Below are positions 42,924-54,270 of a stretch of DNA of 64,000 nucleotides, piece by piece (position 1 is the first letter of the stretch; every line of letters starts with the position of its first letter). The translations under genes were made by a program, and so were the position numbers. The stretch is from contig NZ_CP071444.1 in the NCBI RefSeq assembly GCF_017352215.1, positions 1,488,001 through 1,552,000 of the forward strand. Direction: 5' to 3'. The notes beneath the pieces are model-generated. The model saw nothing but the letters and a program-made list of their open reading frames with translations. It made no database searches and was not told the origin of the DNA. Source of the stretch: Alkalibacter rhizosphaerae (GTDB lineage: Bacteria; Bacillota; Clostridia; Eubacteriales; Alkalibacteraceae).

Positions 42924-43000
42924 TCGCTCGTATGATCTCAGTAAAATGTGATTATTTTCTTTTCATTTGGGATGTCCAGTGATGGAAAGGGAGTGGCGAT

Positions 43001-43147
43001 CTGAAATCGGTGTTGTTTATTGAAGACGATTAGGTTCAACGAAATTATATGGTCGATATAGCCCGGTGCTAGGATGCAAATGTCATGAGCCATCAAACAG
43101 ATCTTGTATCAACGGCGATGTACATTGCAATGTACATCGAAATACAA
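43001..43147 (+). pseudogene. agrA fragment (LytTR response-regulator remnant, agr copy 1)
   Basis: In one frame it reads LKSVLFIEDD-stop-VQRNYMVDIARC-stop-DANVMSHQTDLVSTAMYIAM, which aligns without gaps to the receiver start of the intact regulator at 50395 (LKAVLFLEDDKDQRNYLVDI and on). The two stops are TAG at 43031 and 43070. Homology ends near 43147. The preceding GAAAGGGAGTGG is also shared with the intact copy. Confidence 0.9.
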
Positions 43148-43178
43148 GTTCTTTTCTCGATTGAAAAGGAGGATTATT

Positions 43179-43517
43179 GTGGTATTAGAGCAAGAAATCA
43201 GAGTGTACATGTTAATTGGATTTATTATAATTTGGCTAATTATCGGTGTGTTTTTATTCCTTAAATGGAAACATACACGAAATAAAGGAATTGTTTGGTT
43301 TGTGGGACAATTCTTGTCTCAATGTGTTTGTTTTTATTTATTTACTCGTCTTATTAACTTCAACAAAGGTCTTGAAGGGGATATGCTATCTGGATTTAAT
43401 AGTTTAACAATTGGGTTTATGACTTTAGTTTGGGGGATGAGTATGATTTTTATGATTGTTGGAGTTTTGGATTCTTTAAAATATGCAGAGAGTAAAAACA
43501 AAAATATATCACTTTGA
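43179..43517 (+). CDS. Small membrane protein, unknown function
   Basis: 112 aa with three hydrophobic spans (MLIGFIIIWLIIGVFLFLKW, IVWFVGQFLSQCVCFYLFT, LTIGFMTLVWGMSMIFMIVG) and a lysine/asparagine-rich tail. GTG 43179 has AAGGAGG 6-7 nt upstream. It begins 31 bp after the agrA fragment, in the space where the rest of agrA and agrC would have been. No family recognised. Confidence 0.7.
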   Translation: MVLEQEIRVYMLIGFIIIWLIIGVFLFLKWKHTRNKGIVWFVGQFLSQCVCFYLFTRLINFNKGLEGDMLSGFNSLTIGFMTLVWGMSMIFMIVGVLDSLKYAESKNKNISL

Positions 43518-43695
43518 ATTAAAGAAAAGCTGTTTGTAATGGAATCTCTTGCTTCAAACCTCTGGTTAAGCGTGGTAGTTAAATCTGTTAAATTAATAGT
43601 AGAATAGCAAATCAAGTTCTTAGTCTTTATACGAAGGATGGAGTTCATACAGCAACGCTAGGATCTATAAACTAATTCATTGGAGGTTTTGTAGA

Positions 43696-44685
43696 ATGGG
43701 AAATCGATTACGCGGAAAAGTTGCACTTGTTACAGGGTCCGGACAGGGGATCGGAAGGGCGGTTGCCATCGCTCTTGCAGAAGAAGGGGCGAAGGTCGTT
43801 ACAAACAACCGGGGTCCGGTCAAACAGAATGTGGCGAATCAATTGGAGGGCAGGCTTGAACGCCTGACGCCAGAGCAACTCCAATGGTACAACGAAGAAC
43901 TGGAAAAATATACTGGTGATGCGGAAACGACGGCACAGAAGATCCGGGACTTGGGATTCGAGGCGGCAGCTGTTTTTGGCGATATCGCCGATTTTGACAC
44001 AGCAAAAGAGATCGTTGACAAGACGGTGGAGATCTATGGCTCGGTAGATATTGTCGTTAATGTGGCAGGTGCATTTGGCTTTGCCCCCATCGAAAAAATA
44101 ACGGAAGAGCTTTGGGACAAGGTGACCGATGTCAAACCAAAAGGCCACTTCAACATCATTCGCCACGCCGTTCCTTATATGAAGAAAAACAGATGGGGCC
44201 GGATCATCAACTGCTCCTCGCCGGCTTGGACGGGCGGAGGAATTCGTCAGTCCGAGTACTGCGCAGCCAATGCGGGCACAGTGGGCTTGACCTGGGCACT
44301 GGCGGAAGAGCTTGCCGATGACGGCATCACAGCCAATGTTTTCTGTCCGGCTGCAAAGACGCGAGCATCGGTGGATATGGAGCTGTTTGACAAAGTCGTG
44401 GATGAAGACGAGAAGGCCACCAAGTCTGGCGAGCCCCTGGTCAAATATGATGAGACGGCCCCACCCGAGTTGTTTTCCGCTTTTATTCCTTACCTTGCAT
44501 CGGATGAGGCCGCCCATGTTACGGGTTCTGTTTTCTTCACAATGGGAACATTTATTGGCCGCTACTCCAATCCTGCGATCTCCGCCCACATGATTGGTGT
44601 GGATGGTCCGTGGACGGTGGATAAAATTATCCAGGAAGCACCTGAAACCTTATTAAAAGATTACAAGAATATCAACCAGAAATAG
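43696..44685 (+). CDS. SDR-family protein with YxxxN active-site change
   Basis: A 329-aa protein of the SDR superfamily. The dinucleotide loop is TGSGQGIGRAVAIAL, NVAGAFGF follows, and the catalytic region reads INCSSPAWTGGG then SEYCAANAG. The lysine of Tyr-x3-Lys is replaced by asparagine (AAT at the K position). An unusual insertion of about 35 residues follows the second strand. The gene is richer in GC than its neighbours and unrelated to quorum sensing, so it looks like a later arrival between agr remnants. Without the lysine, catalysis may be altered or lost; a base error at that codon should also be considered. Confidence 0.85.
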   Translation: MGNRLRGKVALVTGSGQGIGRAVAIALAEEGAKVVTNNRGPVKQNVANQLEGRLERLTPEQLQWYNEELEKYTGDAETTAQKIRDLGFEAAAVFGDIADFDTAKEIVDKTVEIYGSVDIVVNVAGAFGFAPIEKITEELWDKVTDVKPKGHFNIIRHAVPYMKKNRWGRIINCSSPAWTGGGIRQSEYCAANAGTVGLTWALAEELADDGITANVFCPAAKTRASVDMELFDKVVDEDEKATKSGEPLVKYDETAPPELFSAFIPYLASDEAAHVTGSVFFTMGTFIGRYSNPAISAHMIGVDGPWTVDKIIQEAPETLLKDYKNINQK

Positions 44686-44707
44686 CAGCATTCCAGTTAC
44701 TGCACTA

Positions 44708-44733
44708 CTCCGTTTAGCCATTGCGTAAGGATT
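44708..44733 (+). pseudogene. agrC 3'-terminal remnant (agr copy 1)
   Basis: CTCCGTTTAGCC plus ATTGCGTAAGGATT encodes L-R-L-A-I-A-stop and matches the last codons of the intact agrC at 52391-52416 (L-R-L-A-V-A-stop) in 24 of 26 bases. On the other strand it is the end of agrD. Confidence 0.7.
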
Positions 44734-44854
44734 CCGGGATTTCCGGTTCGCCCCAAAAAAACAGGGATGCTTGCTGGTTTACGATCATTGGCGCGAGCAT
44801 TACAAGCAAGCTAAGAACGGGATAGATGAATATTCGACCGATTCTTTTTCTCAT
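44714..44854 (-). CDS. agrD: AgrD-type autoinducer prepeptide with serine (lactone) ring
   Basis: A 46-aa prepeptide: amphipathic N-terminal helix RKRIGRIFIYPVLSLLVMLA, then VNQQA, the ring segment SLFFW (residues 30-34), and the acidic recognition tail GEPEIPESLRNG. The tail matches the DEPEVPKEL tail that AgrB removes in staphylococcal AgrD. The residue that normally forms the thiolactone is cysteine; here it is Ser30, predicting a five-membered lactone like that of some serine-containing AIPs. AAAGGAG lies 9 nt before the ATG, and the gene overlaps the end of agrB by 44 bp. It would be processed by AgrB, exported, and sensed by AgrC (51128). Confidence 0.88.
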   Translation of the reverse strand: MRKRIGRIFIYPVLSLLVMLAPMIVNQQASLFFWGEPEIPESLRNG

Positions 44855-45410
44855 GAAGATGTTCTCCTTTCATAATGATTAATTGTATGGATTGAAAGAT
44901 GATTGTAAGTGGACCCAATAGAAAAATGGGTTCGCTTTTTTTCAAGCTGATCGCAATGTAAATCAGAGCAAAGAAGGCTGCCGTCGCCTTTAAGCGTTGT
45001 GGGCTGATGGTTAGGACTCTTCTGCTGTTGCTGGGAATTTGAGGAGTGAGGAGAGTGAGGATTCCGCCAAAAACAACACCGAGACCCAGTATGATCCATC
45101 GCAAGTGGGACAGCTTGAATGCGATGCCCATCATTACAGCAAAATACGCGAAAGAAAAGACAAGACACTGGGTGTACGATTTGAAATGTTTTCCTCCGAC
45201 CTTCATTCGCAGCAAGAGGGTGGTGATGGAACCGTACAGAAATTCCAAGCCATGTCCAAAAACACTGAAGGTGAAAAACAGTAGAAGAAGCTTGGACAAG
45301 TCACCGCCAATGGCAAGGAGAGCGTACTGGATTCTCGCCCATTGATCGTTGTCAAACCGGTTGTCCGGATCCAATTTTTTTAAAGCACTAATGCTATTTA
45401 AACGATTCAT
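44811..45410 (-). CDS. agrB: AgrB-type peptide-processing membrane protease
   Basis: A 199-aa membrane endopeptidase that cleaves the AgrD tail and cyclises the peptide. The catalytic pair is His75 and Cys82 in MKVGGKHFKSYTQC, spaced exactly as His77/Cys84 of S. aureus AgrB, after LLLRMK. Four to six membrane spans are predicted. ATG 45410 follows GGAG by 8 nt; ATG 45431 is less likely. It overlaps agrD, forming agrBD. The promoter has a LytTR direct repeat (45495-45524), so the operon is probably autoinduced. No agrCA follows it: the usual kinase/regulator pair is 5 kb away at 50395-52411. Confidence 0.9.
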   Translation of the reverse strand: MNRLNSISALKKLDPDNRFDNDQWARIQYALLAIGGDLSKLLLLFFTFSVFGHGLEFLYGSITTLLLRMKVGGKHFKSYTQCLVFSFAYFAVMMGIAFKLSHLRWIILGLGVVFGGILTLLTPQIPSNSRRVLTISPQRLKATAAFFALIYIAISLKKSEPIFLLGPLTIIFQSIQLIIMKGEHLHEKKNRSNIHLSRS

Positions 45411-45458
45411 TTCAACAACTCCATTGTCCATCGTTTTTTGGGATTACCTGTTACAAAA

Positions 45459-45524
45459 AATATACCACAACAGTTAAGAGGGTTTTGCTACAAAATCGAC
45501 TAAAAAAAGGGGCAAATAGACTAA
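45459..45524 (-). promoter_or_regulatory. agrBD promoter with AgrA/LytTR direct repeats
   Basis: On the minus strand TTAGTCTAT (45516-45524) and TTAGTCGAT (45495-45503) are 9-bp direct repeats, 12 bp apart, the geometry of AgrA sites. A -10 TATATT lies at 45459-45464 (extended by TG) with a poor -35 at about 45482-45487, which suits an activator-dependent promoter. Confidence 0.82.
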
Positions 45525-45673
45525 ATGGGTTGAATTGCCAATTTTATTATGCTAAGTTCTAAGTAGTAGGGGGGTGATGTACCAGTGAGAATGAATAAGG
45601 TGTTTTTATGAAAACTATAGCCGCATAGACAACTATTTTACTACGAAAATAAGATGATATTAAGACCAGCTAA

Positions 45674-47313
45674 TTAGGGCTTACTGAATGAAGCTATAAC
45701 CATTGAAAACACTGACTTTGAGGCGATTTTTTGGTATAATAGATGCAAGGATTATACACTTTTAGTCAAAAAATCTTTGCAGATGGAGGCGCCTCATGTA
45801 CATCAGAAAAACCAACCAGATCAAGTTTTCGGACGACTTTTTCCTGCCTTTTGGCGGAACGCTCAACAAAAACAATCGTTGGTCATATTAGCCGGTATGA
45901 TCCCTTGGTCCGATTTCGAGGATGCCTATGCCAAGAACTTCAAACCCTCCAACAAGGGAGAGGAAGCACTATCTGTCCGAGTAGCTCTGGGAACGTTGAT
46001 ATTGCAAACCAAGATGAAACTGGTGGATGCCGAAGTACCCTTGCAAGTAATGGAAAATCCATACCTCCAGTATTTCCTTGGGTATGACAGCTTTGAAGAC
46101 GATAAGCCGCCGTTTGATTCATCCCTGATCACCCACTTTCGAAAGCGGTTCAAGCCGGACATCCTTATGGAGATAAACAACATCATTGCCATGAAAGAGT
46201 TGGAAACCATTGCTGACAAAAACAATGAGGACGATTCCGATAATAATAATGGCTCTGGTCTAACACCGCCATCAAATGAGGATGTTCAAATCAGCTTTGA
46301 TGACATCCCGAAGAAAGGGAAGCTGATCCTTGATGCGACCTGTGCACCCAGCGACATTCGCTTTCCGACGGACCTGCGCCTTCTCAATGAAGCCCGTGAA
46401 AAGCTGGAAGAGATGATTGATATTCTCCATGCCCCAGACATCAGTGTTTTGCCAAAACCCAGAACCTATAGGAATCGGGCCCGCAAAGACTATTTGTCCC
46501 TGGAGAAGCAGCGCAAGAAACGCAGCAAGGCAATACGAAAAGCAATTCGTAAACAGCTTGGCTATGTGAAGCGGGACCTGGAATATGTAAAATCCTATCT
46601 TGAAGATCCCACAAGGGCTGAACTACTAACAAAACGCCAGAGCGATCAGCTTGGTACCATAGAAAAACTGTACGGACAGCAGCAATACATGTACGATGAG
46701 AGAACCCACAGTGTAGAAGAGAGAATTGTGAGCATTTCTCAGCCATACATCAGACCCATTGTCCGAGGGAAAGCAGGCTCAGACGTAGAGTTTGGGTGCA
46801 AAGTCATGACAAGTGTCGTGGATGGTTACACCTTCGTGGAAAAGCTTGACTTTGATACTTTCAACGAAGGTATTCTACTACAGGAAGCGGTGGAGCAATA
46901 CCGCAGGCGCTTTGGCTGCTATCCGGAAGCAGTTTTAGCGGATTCCATCTTTCGTAACCGCAAGAACCTGGCATGGCTCAAACTTCGAGGGATTCGCATC
47001 AGCGGACCCAGGCTTGGACGAAAACCGAAAGTTGTTCCACCGGAAGTCAAGAAGATACAAAAGGCAGACAATGGTGAACGTAATGTGGTAGAAGGATCCT
47101 ACGGTGTCGGTAAGAGGAAGTATGGCTTGGGCCTTATTAAAACCAAGCTTGAAGATACGACGAAAAGCGTTATCATTCTACAGTTTCTGGTAATGAACTT
47201 GGACCGGAGGCTCCGGTCCCTTTTGTCGCAATTTTGGATTCGCTTCATTTACGACATTAAAGCTAAGAATTTGGCTGCTGCCAACGGTCTGTGAATCGTT
47301 CAGCAAGCCCTAA
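45674..47313 (+). mobile_element. IS5-type insertion sequence
   Basis: About 1.64 kb. The terminal inverted repeats are TTAGGGCTTACTGAA (45674-45688) and TTCAGCAAGCCCTAA (47299-47313), with one mismatch. It carries one transposase gene. No clear target-site duplication is visible beyond AT-rich flanks. It separates agrBD and its promoter from the genes downstream and probably interrupted the gene whose end is at 47314-47548. Confidence 0.88.
45796..47294 (+). CDS. IS5/IS1182-group transposase (frameshift at 45881-45882)
   Basis: About 499 aa when repaired. ATG 45796 reads MYIRKTNQIKFSDDFFLPFG to NKNNRW, then the frame changes and continues ILAGMIPWSDFEDAYAKNF; adding one G after CGTTGG restores NRWVILAGMIPW, the conserved N-terminus of this group. 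The DDE core is visible as LILDATCAPSDIRFPTDL, AVLADSIFRNRKNLAWL and VVEGSYGVGKRKYGLG. It excises and inserts the element. If the frameshift is real the copy is dead; it matches the other one-base defects in this window, so it may be an artefact. Confidence 0.88.
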
Positions 47314-48396: not shown

Positions 48397-50363
48397 GTGC
48401 TGATGATGAGGTGGAGTATTAGGATTGCAAGGTTGATGTTCGCATTATTGGCCGCATTGCTCTTTGTATGGACTCCAACAACTGCCCAGGCGGCTGTATC
48501 CAAGGTTGATTTCGAGATAACGAGTTACCGAATTGATGCCTTTGTGGAATTGGACGGCTCAATGAGCGTACAGGAAGTTCTTGCTTACGAGGGCAGTTTC
48601 AACGGTCAATTTTGGAATTTGGAATATGCCGCCGGTGGGGAAAAATCGAATACCACAACGAATTTGGAGGATCTTGAAGGGAATGCAATCATCTACAACG
48701 CCCATGACATTCAAGACATGAAAGTATACGCTCTCTTAGATCCGAGTGGAACCCTCGGAGCCGATAATTTGCTTGAGTATTCTTTCATTTGGTCTGGTAC
48801 GGGCAATCCTGGTGATTCAGGCGTCTACGAACAAAGAATGGATGATGCCTCGGTAGCCTTAAAAATATTTTCGCCAACCCAGAACCAACAAAAGGTTCTG
48901 CTGATCACGTATCGATTGGAGAATGTGGCGGTATTGCATCGGGATGTTGCCGAAGTTTTTTGGAATTTCATTGGATCCAAGTGGGAGGAACCCCTTCATA
49001 ATGTAGAAATCAACATTCACCTTCCAAAGGCAAGCGAAGAGCTGAAAGTGTTTGCCCATGGCCCTTTGTATGGGACCTCAGAAATTGTCGACCAACAGCA
49101 GGTACGCTTGTCCATTGAAAAAATTACACCGGGTGAAATGCTGGATGGCAGGGTCGTATTCTCAAAAGAGGTACTGGATTCTTCTGAAAAAAGGACCGAC
49201 ATGGAGGCATTGCCTGAAATACTTCGTATCGAACAGCTGAAAGCCAATAAGGCCAACGACATGCGGAGAAATTTTTTGCTGTTGAAATATTTGATCGCCG
49301 GGTTGTCCCTTCTCGGATTGGTCGGGTCAATCGTTGGTGTTTTTCATATTTATAACAAATATATTAAAGAGAAAAAAACCGAGTTCCGTGGGAAATATTA
49401 CAGGGAGTTGCCTTCAGATTACGGCCCTGCCGTGATGAGCTATAATTACCATCAAAAGTTAAACACACCCAAGGATCTGACAGCCAGTATTTTAGATATG
49501 ATCCGCAAGAGAATATTCCGGATTGACATGGAAAAAGTAGAGAAAAAGAGCATTCTAGGGGAAGCAAACAGGGTGAAGAATACACGATCACAGATATCAG
49601 CAAAAATCTGCAAAGACCTTTGACGCCCTACGAGGAATTCATACGCCATTGGCTGATCGAAAAAATCGGAAATGGGATTTCCGCTACTTTTGATGAGATC
49701 GAAGCGTATTCAAAAGACAAAGTAAATGGCGCAGAGTTTTACAAGGACTATGGATTGTGGATGGTTATGGTTCGGGAGGAAGCGGAGAACTATGAGTTTT
49801 TCGATCCAACGGCGAACAAAGGAATCGCATCGGGGATCTTGATCGGTATAACAGGGATAGGCCTTGGTGTTTTCGCAATATTTCATGGAATTGTTTTAGG
49901 GATCGCGAATATCCCCGTTGGGATTCTGGTGATTGTTTGTTCTGCACTCATCAAACAGCGAACAAAGGAAGGCAATGAAGAATACGTCAAGTGGAAGGCT
50001 TTTTCCAGGTTTTTAAAAGACTTCAGCAAATTGGAAGATGCTGTTGTACCATCCGTCATTTTGTGGGAGCATTATCTGGTATATGCAGTATCCTTGGGCA
50101 TTGCCGACAGGGTCATAGATGCCATGCAGGTTTTTTTGAAACCGGATGACTTTGCCAATCCGGGGTTGACTTTCCTTGGAAGTAGTTACATGTATGGCGG
50201 GTTAACCGCAGTGCATGCGCTGAACACTTCCTTTACAAATGTTACCAGAAGTGCCATGCAAATTGCTTCAACCCAGAATTCCTCCGGCGCAGGTGGCGGT
50301 GGTGGTTTCAGTGGAGGAGGCGGCAGTGGCGGCGGCGGTGGCACAGGTGGTGGGGGATTTTGA
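48397..50363 (+). CDS. DUF2207 membrane protein with glycine-rich tail (frameshift at 49558-49561)
   Basis: About 655 aa when repaired. The signal peptide (residues 8-32, ending AQA) leads into the extracellular DUF2207 domain: VDFEITSYRIDAFVELDGSM and VQEVLAYEGSFNGQFW. A membrane span (LLKYLIAGLSLLGLVGSIVG) and a cytoplasmic part follow; the frame breaks after KKSILG and resumes as SKQGEEYTITDISKNLQRPL when one G is added to the GGGG run. Two more spans and the typical Gly/Ser tail (GGGGGFSGGGGSGGGGG) close it. GTG 48397 or ATG 48403 after AAGGAG starts it. The family function is unknown. It directly precedes agrAC. Confidence 0.87.
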
Positions 50364-50394: not shown

Positions 50395-51141
50395 ATGTGC
50401 AAGAAAGGGAGTGGGAATCTGAAAGCGGTATTGTTTTTGGAAGACGACAAAGACCAACGCAATTATTTGGTTGATATAGCGCGTCGCTACGATGCGGATC
50501 TTACGATTCACCAGACAGAGCTTGTATCAACGGCGATGTACATGGCGATGAACAACGAAATACATGCCTTTTTCATCGATGTTGTTCTGCCTGACGGCAA
50601 TGGCATTGATTTTGCCAGAAAGATCAGAAGCTTCGAGCAGTATCAGTTCACGCCCATTGTTTTTATTACAGGGGATATTCAAAGAGAATTGGAAGCTTTT
50701 CGAGAAGTGCATTGCTATGATTTTATTACCAAGCCCTATCATGAAAAAGTCGTTGAAGAGACATTGCAAAAGATCTTGGTGGACTACTTGGGGATGGAGA
50801 AAAGAGATGCCGATAATAAATTCTTCGATTTGGAATTTAAAAGCCAAACCCATCGCATCAACATCAAAGACATCATTTATTTTGAACGCATGAATCGGAA
50901 GATCTTTATCAAGACCCTTTATGAAGAGATCATGTACAAGCAAACCAGTTTATCTCAAATCCTGGAACAACTCCCCGCTCAATTTATGCAAATCCATCAA
51001 TCCATCATAGTAAATTTGAACTACGTGGAACGAATCGATTTCAAGGCAAACGAGCTACATTTGAAAAATGGTGGAGCGCCTCTGCCTGTAGGAACCAGTT
51101 TTCGAAAGAAAGTGGGGGAACAATTCAGTGACATTCGTTGA
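50395..51141 (+). CDS. agrA: AgrA-type LytTR response regulator (agr copy 2)
   Basis: A 248-aa two-component regulator: receiver domain (residues 10-125) with acidic pocket LEDD, phospho-acceptor Asp in FFIDVVLPDGNGIDFA, and switch lysine in FITKPYHEKVV; C-terminal LytTR DNA-binding domain (about 140-245) with HRINIKDIIYFERMNRKIF and FMQIHQSIIVNLNYVERID. It should bind the 9-12-9 direct repeats at 45495-45524 and 52521-52550. The GTG start of agrC lies within its last codons. Its N-terminal coding sequence is duplicated as the pseudogene at 43001. Confidence 0.92.
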   Translation: MCKKGSGNLKAVLFLEDDKDQRNYLVDIARRYDADLTIHQTELVSTAMYMAMNNEIHAFFIDVVLPDGNGIDFARKIRSFEQYQFTPIVFITGDIQRELEAFREVHCYDFITKPYHEKVVEETLQKILVDYLGMEKRDADNKFFDLEFKSQTHRINIKDIIYFERMNRKIFIKTLYEEIMYKQTSLSQILEQLPAQFMQIHQSIIVNLNYVERIDFKANELHLKNGGAPLPVGTSFRKKVGEQFSDIR

Positions 51142-52411
51142 GACGTTTTTGCTTTCGATCTTTGACACGGTGATGATTTTGATCATCAGCCATCGAATCA
51201 GGAGGGATGTATTCACAACGTTCCTGCAAAAGGTTTTCTTTGTTGTCCTTACGACCGGCTTCATTGCTTTTTTTAGCACCTATGTTTCAAACAATCATAT
51301 ATCCCATCTTCTATCTGTAATTTTTACCATAACCAGCATCAACATGTACTTGCGTTTCGGTGGAGAGAAAAGCATTGTACGTAATACTCTGTTGTTTTTC
51401 ACCACATCCATCATGCTCATCGCAATTCAAATGCTGACCATTGTAATCGTGCATTTGGTTTTTGGAAACATCGAGTATACCTTTACCAATGGCTTGCTTG
51501 CCCAATCCACCAGCATCATCATCGTGGTTCTGTTGGCAAAATTTGCTCCACTGCAAAAAATCGATGCATTTATTGTAGGAACCAATACGTTGTTTCGCTT
51601 TGTGATCACAACGACTTTTGTATTGTATTATGGCATCACCATTCTTTGGTTCAGCGACATTCAGTTGGTCACAGCGACACCTCTGGGGGCGATTGTTTTG
51701 ATCATGTTGGCAGTGGTTGTCAATACGATCATTCTTCGGGAAGGTTTCGTCAACGAGATGTACAAGAACAAGCTGGAGGTTTTGGAAACCTACACCCCCA
51801 TAGTGGAGGACATGATCACCGAATTGCGCTCCAGACAGCACGACTATCACAACCATATTCAGACACTGATCTCCATGAATTCCGGTGAAACCTTTGCATC
51901 GGAACAAGCCGACAAGTATATTGACGACATCACCAACAACGAACTGTTAAACATACTCAGGAAGATGGACGATCCCATAGTAGGTGCCTTTCTTCATAGC
52001 AAGGCCAGGGAAGCATCCAAGTATGGAATGGACATGATCCTGGATATCAAACGCCGCATACCGGATTCCATTTTCGAGACCTATGAACTCATTGAAATGT
52101 ATGGGATTCTCATAGACAATGCCTTTGATGCTGCAAAATGTGTGGATGCTTTCCCAAAGTCGGTTTTTGTTACAGTGGATCAGAAAGACAACCACATCCT
52201 ATTCGAAGTCAGAAACCACTACGGGTATGTGAGCATTAAAGACATCAACGGTTTCTTTCAGAAAGGAAACACCACAAAGACCGTACCCGGCCATGGATTT
52301 GGCTTATATAAGTTGAAAAGAATGTTGGAGAAGAAAAGCAGTTCCATACTTTTGTCCTATGACACAGAAAGGGAGCAAATCGTTGCCCAACTCCGTTTAG
52401 CTGTTGCGTAA
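51128..52411 (+). CDS. agrC: AgrC-type sensor histidine kinase (agr copy 2)
   Basis: A 427-aa HPK10-type kinase: six or seven N-terminal membrane spans (to about residue 215) form the peptide sensor, then the H-box LRSRQHDYHNHIQTLISM, the N-box YGILIDNAFDAAK and the G-box GHGFGLYKLKRML of a GHKL ATPase. It would detect the cyclic peptide made from AgrD and phosphorylate AgrA. GTG 51128 overlaps agrA by 14 bp. Downstream, where agrDB should lie convergently, only scars and the terminator GTGAACCC/GGGTTCAC plus T7 (52438-52468) remain. Confidence 0.92.
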   Translation: MTFVETFLLSIFDTVMILIISHRIRRDVFTTFLQKVFFVVLTTGFIAFFSTYVSNNHISHLLSVIFTITSINMYLRFGGEKSIVRNTLLFFTTSIMLIAIQMLTIVIVHLVFGNIEYTFTNGLLAQSTSIIIVVLLAKFAPLQKIDAFIVGTNTLFRFVITTTFVLYYGITILWFSDIQLVTATPLGAIVLIMLAVVVNTIILREGFVNEMYKNKLEVLETYTPIVEDMITELRSRQHDYHNHIQTLISMNSGETFASEQADKYIDDITNNELLNILRKMDDPIVGAFLHSKAREASKYGMDMILDIKRRIPDSIFETYELIEMYGILIDNAFDAAKCVDAFPKSVFVTVDQKDNHILFEVRNHYGYVSIKDINGFFQKGNTTKTVPGHGFGLYKLKRMLEKKSSSILLSYDTEREQIVAQLRLAVA

Positions 52412-52483
52412 GGATTTTGCTTGATTGATCATTGAAGGTGAACCCAAGAAAAAGGGTTCACTTTTTTTATGGGGACAGCAATG
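52391..52483 (-). pseudogene. agrDB scar (agr copy 2)
   Basis: The 26 bp at 52391-52416 match the end of agrD in copy 1 (minus strand reads ...SLRNS-stop against SLRNG-stop). The 52430-52482 segment matches an internal stretch of agrB at 44901-44959 (GATTG..AGTGGACCCA..GAAAAA..GGGTTCGCTTTTTTT pattern). In between and beyond, agrD and agrB are deleted. The GTGAACCC-loop-GGGTTCAC-T7 hairpin here ends agrAC. Confidence 0.75.
52438..52468 (+). terminator. agrAC terminator
   Basis: GTGAACCC (52438-52445), 8-nt A-rich loop, GGGTTCAC (52454-52461), then seven T. A G-U-paired version of the same hairpin is buried inside agrB of copy 1 (about 44909-44940). Confidence 0.9.
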
Positions 52484-52520
52484 CCGTTCACTACATAATC
52501 AAAGCTTGTTTTGCTATAAA

Positions 52521-52550
52521 ATCGACTAAAAAAAGGGGCAAATAGACTAA
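52521..52550 (-). promoter_or_regulatory. Second LytTR direct repeat (relic of agrBD promoter)
   Basis: TTAGTCTAT (52542-52550) and TTAGTCGAT (52521-52529) on the minus strand, 21 bp apart, in a block of about 40 bp almost identical to 45484-45525. It points toward the agrDB scar, so it is the promoter remnant of the deleted operon. It may still influence the plus-strand lipoprotein gene at 52651. Confidence 0.78.
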
Positions 52551-52650
52551 CGGGGTTGTATTCATTGATGCGTTTCGATATTTTTAAAGGAAACAAGTCC
52601 GCATTTGCCCTTGACTTGGAAAAGGTAAAAACGAACGGAGGATCAAAAGT

Positions 52651-53184
52651 ATGGCGAAAAAAATAGCTGTTCTCCTGGCGCTCTCTTTGTGTTTTACGAT
52701 GCTGGGTTGCAGCAACATCACTAATAGAAGAAGAGACAAAGAAGTCTTTGAAACCTTCCTGCAAGATTATTACGCTCAACTCACCATGACAAGCAGCGAA
52801 TGGCATGAGATAAAAGAGCTTTTGAAAGAGGATTCAAAATATAGGAAATGTAGATATGTAAACAACTTCAATGGGATCTTATCGGAAACGTGTCTTGAAC
52901 GAATGGTTTACAACCAATTGTTGCCGAACTATGAGATGGAAAAAACCGGCATTGAAACCATAGCATTCAGTGACTTGATCCTGAAGAAGAAATACGAAGG
53001 AATCTATCATGATCTTGAAAAGGACGAGAATGTACCCTTTACCATATACGAAGTGAGCTATATCTTACGTGTTAAGAAAAATGGGGAGGTAACCTCATTT
53101 ACAAATAAAAGCGAAGTCCGTTTCATTTCGAAAGACGAAAGACGGATGATCGACCACGTCATAGGGGATTTTGTTTGGAGGTAA
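52651..53184 (+). CDS. Lipoprotein of unknown function
   Basis: A 177-aa protein with a clean signal peptide MAKKIAVLLALSLCF and the lipobox TMLGC. The mature part is charged, with ETFLQDYYAQLTMTSSEWHE near its start and the C-terminal ISKDERRMIDHVIGDFVW. No family recognised. It starts 100 bp after the relic LytTR repeat and 240 bp after agrC; it could be a target of the Agr system. AACGGAGGATC precedes the ATG. Confidence 0.78.
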   Translation: MAKKIAVLLALSLCFTMLGCSNITNRRRDKEVFETFLQDYYAQLTMTSSEWHEIKELLKEDSKYRKCRYVNNFNGILSETCLERMVYNQLLPNYEMEKTGIETIAFSDLILKKKYEGIYHDLEKDENVPFTIYEVSYILRVKKNGEVTSFTNKSEVRFISKDERRMIDHVIGDFVWR

Positions 53185-53718: not shown

Positions 53719-54270
53719 ATGAAGTCGTCAGCTTCAAAAAAAGTGGGAATCCTTTTGCTGTTGCTCATGGTACTGTTTAGCATAGTAGGTTGCAGTAAAA
53801 CCGATCAGCTTGACTTAGGTGAAGGTGTCGGAGCGGTTTGTATGCCCGGCAAAGCAGGTGAGAGCAGAACGTATGCAGGAACCTATGTTGTACATGACGG
53901 GAACCGGGAGATCACTGTTGTAGAGATTTCCCTGATCAACCCTAAGGATGTTGACATACTGGAGGCGTGGTTTTTAGAGATCGATCCATCCGATACCACT
54001 CTGGTGGGTTATGTGAATTGGCCTTTGGAGAGGATCCCATTGCTTTGGGATGAACGAGTTCCTGTGGAAGGGGTGGTTTTGAAACCGGGTGATGAGCGAA
54101 ACCTTGTGGTTGTTGTTACCTCCACGGCTGAAGACATCGCATCCTTCGAAGGTGTCCGGATCGTGTATAAAGATAAACTTGGAAGGAAATACACACAAAA
54201 TACTTTGGATTGGTGTTACATCTCAACAAATGGTTGTGATGGTGTTATAGACGAATATTATCAAAAATAA
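53719..54270 (+). CDS. Lipoprotein of unknown function
   Basis: A 183-aa protein with signal KKVGILLLLLMVLF and the lipobox SIVGC. The mature domain is mostly beta-strand (ITVVEISLINPKDVDILEAW, RNLVVVVTSTAEDIASFEGV) and has two cysteines near its C-terminus (DWCYISTNGCDG) that could form a disulfide. No family recognised. It ends at a perfect hairpin (54271-54302). TCTGGAGGTAAT precedes the ATG. Confidence 0.8.
   Translation: MKSSASKKVGILLLLLMVLFSIVGCSKTDQLDLGEGVGAVCMPGKAGESRTYAGTYVVHDGNREITVVEISLINPKDVDILEAWFLEIDPSDTTLVGYVNWPLERIPLLWDERVPVEGVVLKPGDERNLVVVVTSTAEDIASFEGVRIVYKDKLGRKYTQNTLDWCYISTNGCDGVIDEYYQK

Follow-up and report, generated by a model that had tools for sequence, protein, structure and literature searches.

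The agrBD genes and their products

The window, a stretch of 64,000 nucleotides from Alkalibacter rhizosphaerae, carries an overlapping agrD-agrB pair, a two-component pair of AgrA- and AgrC-like type, and remnants of further copies of these genes (Table 1).

Table 1. Features of the agr region, in window coordinates
Feature	Position	Strand	Remarks
Pseudogene, N-terminal response-regulator remnant	42985-43161	+	79% nt identity to 50403-50580; two in-frame stops
Kinase-gene end remnant	44701-44733	+	88% nt identity to 52384-52416 (last codons)
agrD	44714-44854	-	46-aa AgrD-type propeptide; predicted ring Ser30-Leu-Phe-Phe-Trp34, tail GEPEIPESL
agrB	44811-45431	-	206-aa membrane peptidase; PF04647 and catalytic residue spacing
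agrB upstream element	45482-45536		93% identical to 52508-52562
IS5-family transposase between copies A and B	45777-47294	+	
AgrA-like response regulator	50395-51141	+	Receiver and LytTR
AgrC-like membrane histidine kinase, putative receptor	51128-52411	+	SPOB_a/GHKL
Remnant of second agrB, 3' part	52421-52468	-	80% nt identity to 44892-44942
Second copy of agrB upstream element	52508-52562		Same 30-bp repeat at 52521-52550
Lipoprotein, synteny marker	53719-54270	+	45% identity to Alkalibaculum sporogenes lipoprotein beyond agrB (L183:5564-6124)

The 46-aa reading frame is a genuine AgrD-type gene, confirmed at the exact position originally predicted, on the minus strand. It opens with ATG about 8 nt behind a strong ribosome-binding site (AAAGGAG), and its start overlaps the 3' end of agrB, the two genes sharing 44 nt. 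The full translation is MRKRIGRIFIYPVLSLLVMLAPMIVNQQASLFFWGEPEIPESLRNG, laid out as MRKRIGRIFIYPVLSLLVMLAPMIVNQQA-SLFFW-GEPEIPESLRNG. A profile search, proposed together with the original prediction, scored the peptide at 22.2 bits against TIGR04223 (AgrD, NCBIfam; curated cut-off 19), and across the whole 2.45-Mb genome agrD was the only match above the cut-off (20.8 bits in that search). Two Pfam identities, GPR_Gpa2_C and DUF2651, were weak, below cut-off, and were rejected. In Ser30-x4-GEPEIPESL the ring residue, Cys or Ser in this family, stands five positions ahead of an acidic, proline-bearing tail; this ring/tail pattern, which was drawn after relatives had been seen, occurs once in the short reading frames of the window against 0.017 expected from mononucleotide shuffles.

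The leader had been described as amphipathic; basic and hydrophobic is the more fitting description of its N-terminus. The tail is likewise of the recognition type, as claimed, although the S. aureus letters offered for comparison (EPEVPKEL) were slightly off, the S. aureus AgrD tail being DEVEVPKEL.

The expected AgrB partner is the overlapping PF04647 gene, whose product matches that profile with 66 bits (E 2.7e-18). Its residues R75, G80, H82 and C89, near-invariant across about 100 AgrB sequences, correspond in identity and spacing (+5, +7, +14) to R70, G75, H77 and C84 of S. aureus AgrB, which are needed for activity (PMC10196373). Judged by these residues and the profile, AgrB is intact. 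In the predicted structure (pLDDT 87) AgrB is a membrane protein of several helices; neither its sequence nor its fold had a significant match in the PDB. It is the most divergent AgrB of its group (branch 1.72; 16-27% identity to relatives), which could reflect drift. When genome contigs were queried with the single protein, no AgrB relatives were returned; an alignment query did recover them. A second genomic match (C1:692267, 25.8 bits) is a false positive, because it lies inside an MFS-type transporter ORF, and no AgrB/AgrD pair other than agrB-agrD was found in the 2.45 Mb of the genome.

Serine at the ring position

Ser30 is encoded by TCC, and the proposal that it occupies the place of the ring cysteine, ahead of a five-residue SLFFW ring and the tail, is supported. 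It had been conceded that homologous loci with Cys at this codon would betray a base error for TGC. That explanation is ruled out, since the nearest relatives found also have Ser. Alkalibaculum sporogenes M08DMB (G004), which belongs to the same GTDB family (NCBI Eubacteriaceae), has the AgrD SILWF followed by GEPDCPASL, with AAAGGAG before its start; the MAG Zod_Metabat.73 (Clostridia, another GTDB family) has SLFFW followed by GEEDCPECL, a ring identical to that of the window. Ser-type rings are also found in the AgrDs of Petroclostridium X23 (SFLLW and SFVFW) and of an Alkaliphilus MAG (SLFLW). Cys-type AgrDs do occur elsewhere within the AgrB clade of the window, and the ring of Defluviitalea phaphyphila, CFYMW, is of this type. 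In a genome of the same genus (G002), AgrB is truncated at a contig end resembling adapter sequence, which places its agrD beyond reach.

Ring sizes vary among clostridial AgrDs and closure is here a prediction from sequence, so it may be asked whether Ser30 is the ring nucleophile, or whether the peptide stays linear or reacts through another residue. Against this, the peptide contains no Cys, and in alignments with homologues Ser30 falls on their Cys, at a constant spacing from the tail. Moreover, a pentapeptide lactone closed by Ser was confirmed by LC-MS/MS in 2017 for C. thermocellum Clo1313_2818 (PMC5322536). We consider a role for Ser30 other than ring closure very improbable.

Serine-lactone chemistry is thus already known, in Clostridia too, and a serine-lactone AgrD in the window would be a further instance of it. 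Clo1313_2818 is likewise a clostridial AgrD-type peptide giving a five-residue Ser lactone without exocyclic tail (here predicted), but no agrB or agrCA was found beside it, whereas the window has an agrB overlapping its agrD, and a two-component pair at a distance of 5 kb. S. pseudintermedius and E. faecalis also make Ser lactones (PMC3673130, PMC12312760). The AIP of S. pseudintermedius/intermedius shares Ser for Cys, lactone for thiolactone and processing by AgrB (in the window, predicted), but it is a nonamer with an exocyclic tail and belongs to the Bacilli. GBAP of the E. faecalis Fsr system is likewise a Ser lactone, produced by a homologue of AgrB and served by AgrA/AgrC-like regulators; its ring, in contrast, has nine residues, and fsrD lies within fsrB.

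A probable duplicated unit and a candidate circuit

DNA comparison within the window reveals two reciprocally decayed copies of a unit in which response regulator and kinase genes face agrD-agrB: copy A (42985-45540) and copy B (50395-52562). All matching blocks are collinear and on the same strand. Copy A retains agrBD with remnants of the regulator and of the kinase, the latter facing the end of agrD and overlapping its 3' end, while copy B retains the LytTR regulator, the GHKL kinase and a remnant of agrB, the remainder of that gene and its agrD being deleted. Given the collinearity of these remnants, copy A formerly had a regulator-kinase pair facing agrD, and copy B an agrD-agrB pair behind its kinase; duplication of the unit followed by reciprocal loss is the simplest history. 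The original prediction mentioned neither the neighbouring two-component system nor the decayed duplicate.

Intact counterparts exist among the relatives. In Alkalibaculum sporogenes (L183/L192) a Ser-type AgrD and AgrB accompany a regulator-kinase pair convergent with agrD and the same lipoprotein; unlike the window, it has one intact unit, with no duplication or split seen. The same tail-to-tail order, agrBD convergent with the kinase and regulator, is found with the SLFFW ring in Zod_Metabat.73 (L185/L195), which differs in GTDB family and tail and again has one intact unit. The window regulator and kinase share about 25-33% identity with those of both relatives. Behind the agr locus of A. 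sporogenes (L183:6482-9317) lie two closely similar lipoproteins in tandem, each about 470 aa long, which are possible targets of the system.

Two further features lie in the window between the copies. The IS5-family element has two genomic copies only, the other (G000:C1:859300-860942) being 95% identical. A DUF2207 membrane protein (48397-50363) is divided between neighbouring ORFs at 48397-49623 and 49620-50363, which a frameshift may explain.

With a GHKL/SPOB-type membrane kinase and a LytTR regulator, the components of an agrBDCA system are present. The pair lies 5 kb from agrBD, beyond the IS5 element and other genes, and is neither adjacent nor in the same operon. A complete agrBDCA operon is found in S. 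pseudintermedius/intermedius. The separation lowers the case for a canonical operon, not for an agr-type system, because unlinked agrBD genes are known, C. difficile agr1 being an example (PMC8534292).

The remnants, the long AgrB branch and the IS5 copy inserted some 0.35 kb from agrB might together mark a decaying locus, in which agrBD are functionless pseudogenes in the making. Both reading frames are nevertheless open, with a good ribosome-binding site and with catalytic residues and tail intact, and stops have accumulated in the adjacent remnant: two in 57 codons of the regulator remnant, against none in the 252 codons of copy-A agrB and agrD. At the rate of the remnant, a stop-free run of this length has a chance of about 1e-4; the estimate is rough, but it argues that agrBD have been kept by selection. 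Ongoing decay is accordingly an improbable account of the locus.

Upstream of agrB, the upstream element contains ATCGACTAA-N12-ATAGACTAA (45495-45524), a direct repeat of LytTR type with a 21-bp period. LytTR sites consist of nine-base direct repeats with a 21-bp period; the sequences of the 21-bp-period repeats fit the LytTR consensus only partly. The repeat is identical at copies A and B and has no exact match elsewhere in the genome, and its block is the most conserved of the matching blocks, with an identity above that of the regulator block (p ~0.02). Repeats with a 21-bp period, differing in sequence, also occur upstream of agrB in A. sporogenes and Zod_Metabat.73. Each of these repeats is individually weak, being matched by 7-17% of shuffles, and they are for this reason supportive rather than proof; their position is suggestive of autoinduction. 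A genome-wide pattern search for further LytTR-type sites, as of a regulon, returned only the two window copies and one background-like match.

We consider it probable that the locus encodes a working agr-type circuit, with a serine-lactone SLFFW signal from copy A and kinase and regulator from copy B. Genes, residues, synteny, remnants and repeats are read directly from the sequence, and the steps that go beyond this anatomy are inferred by homology with agr. AgrB would cut off the AgrD tail at the Trp34-Gly35 bond and hold the peptide on Cys89 as an acyl-enzyme until the Ser30 hydroxyl closes the five-residue lactone. The exported ring would be sensed by the copy-B membrane kinase and relayed to the LytTR regulator. 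The regulator may then bind the 21-bp-period repeat upstream of agrB, giving autoinduction, as well as the twin repeat, which is probably upstream of a lipoprotein gene at 52651. Such a circuit would descend from an ancestral regulator-kinase pair facing agrD-agrB that was duplicated, one copy losing sensing and the other signal making.

The main rival is that agrBD make a serine lactone which the copy-B kinase no longer recognises, the kinase having drifted to another ligand and the peptide acting on neighbours or on nothing. Signal genes and kinase derive from different copies, the kinase having evolved with an agrD since lost, and both it and the window AgrB are divergent from their relatives. 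However, the genome retains only a single AgrB, a single AgrD and a single strong match to the kinase family, and the promoter repeats at the two copies are identical; both facts fit a shared circuit, and we regard a drifted kinase as unlikely, if less so than decay of the locus.

Serine and cysteine across clostridial AgrDs

Serine lactones had been called rare in Clostridia, and this part of the original prediction did not hold. A survey of small ORFs adjoining AgrB genes in the class yielded 101 non-redundant AgrD-like peptides, with Cys at the ring position in 63, Ser in 34, Thr in 3 and none of these in 1; the subset from genomes sampled with the Pfam AgrB model alone comprised 38 Cys, 24 Ser and 3 Thr. 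Ser at this position is therefore common, not rare, at about one third of the surveyed peptides, and the C. thermocellum lactone (PMC5322536) points the same way. Ser-type AgrDs were distributed over 13 of 27 families and 28 of 74 genomes, both types occurring in eight genomes. The exact five-residue ring fits 26 of the Ser cases; six-residue and a few odd-tail cases are less certain. Our literature search, which was limited, returned no report of how frequent Ser is in clostridial AgrDs, although this does not prove that none exists.

On the AgrB tree, a quick tree with long branches flagged, the Ser label requires 12 changes, at least eight of them forced by well-supported branches. The label is at the same time strongly clustered (12 changes against a shuffled mean of 29.8), and the window AgrB falls in a marked set of 20, of which 15 are Ser-type. 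For the combined statement that reciprocal gene loss from a duplicated unit left a working circuit, with signal genes from one copy, sensor genes from the other and an identical regulator site at both, and that Ser (rarely Thr) AgrDs are regular in Clostridia and switch repeatedly with Cys on related AgrBs, our confidence is evenly balanced.

Several variants appeared among the surveyed peptides. Two with Thr at the ring position and no Cys there, L150 (G146:C25; TNTIS followed by YQPEIPESLLK) and L159 (G120:C64; TNGIG followed by YQPEVPESLLK), would by their sequence give threonine lactones. In family f30 (L053, L054, L057, L058, L038, L040) the tails are very short (ASKILWLYQPEK and similar), six-residue Ser rings are possible, and the peptides often have an AgrB gene on either side; in L040 the ring position holds none of Cys, Ser and Thr. 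In the recognition tail, many Ser-type AgrDs (L022, L026, L051, L011, L019) have Cys at the place of the Ile found in the window, the motifs being GEPKCP, GEPDCP and GEEDCP. The AgrD frames of L081 and L025 are apparently broken by a stop or shift, and the L081 genome (G146) retains more intact agr copies.

The window is a clear example of how an agr system can be split through the reciprocal decay of a duplicate. The reviews consulted treat Ser lactones as exceptions, the cases being S. pseudintermedius and E. faecalis; if about one third of clostridial AgrDs have Ser, lactone signals would be mainstream chemistry. AgrBs that are close relatives but act on Ser- or Cys-type peptides (e.g. L028 and L083) provide a route to the determinant of ester versus thioester formation in AgrB, and lactones may be expected to be more resistant to thiols than thiolactones in reducing anaerobic habitats.
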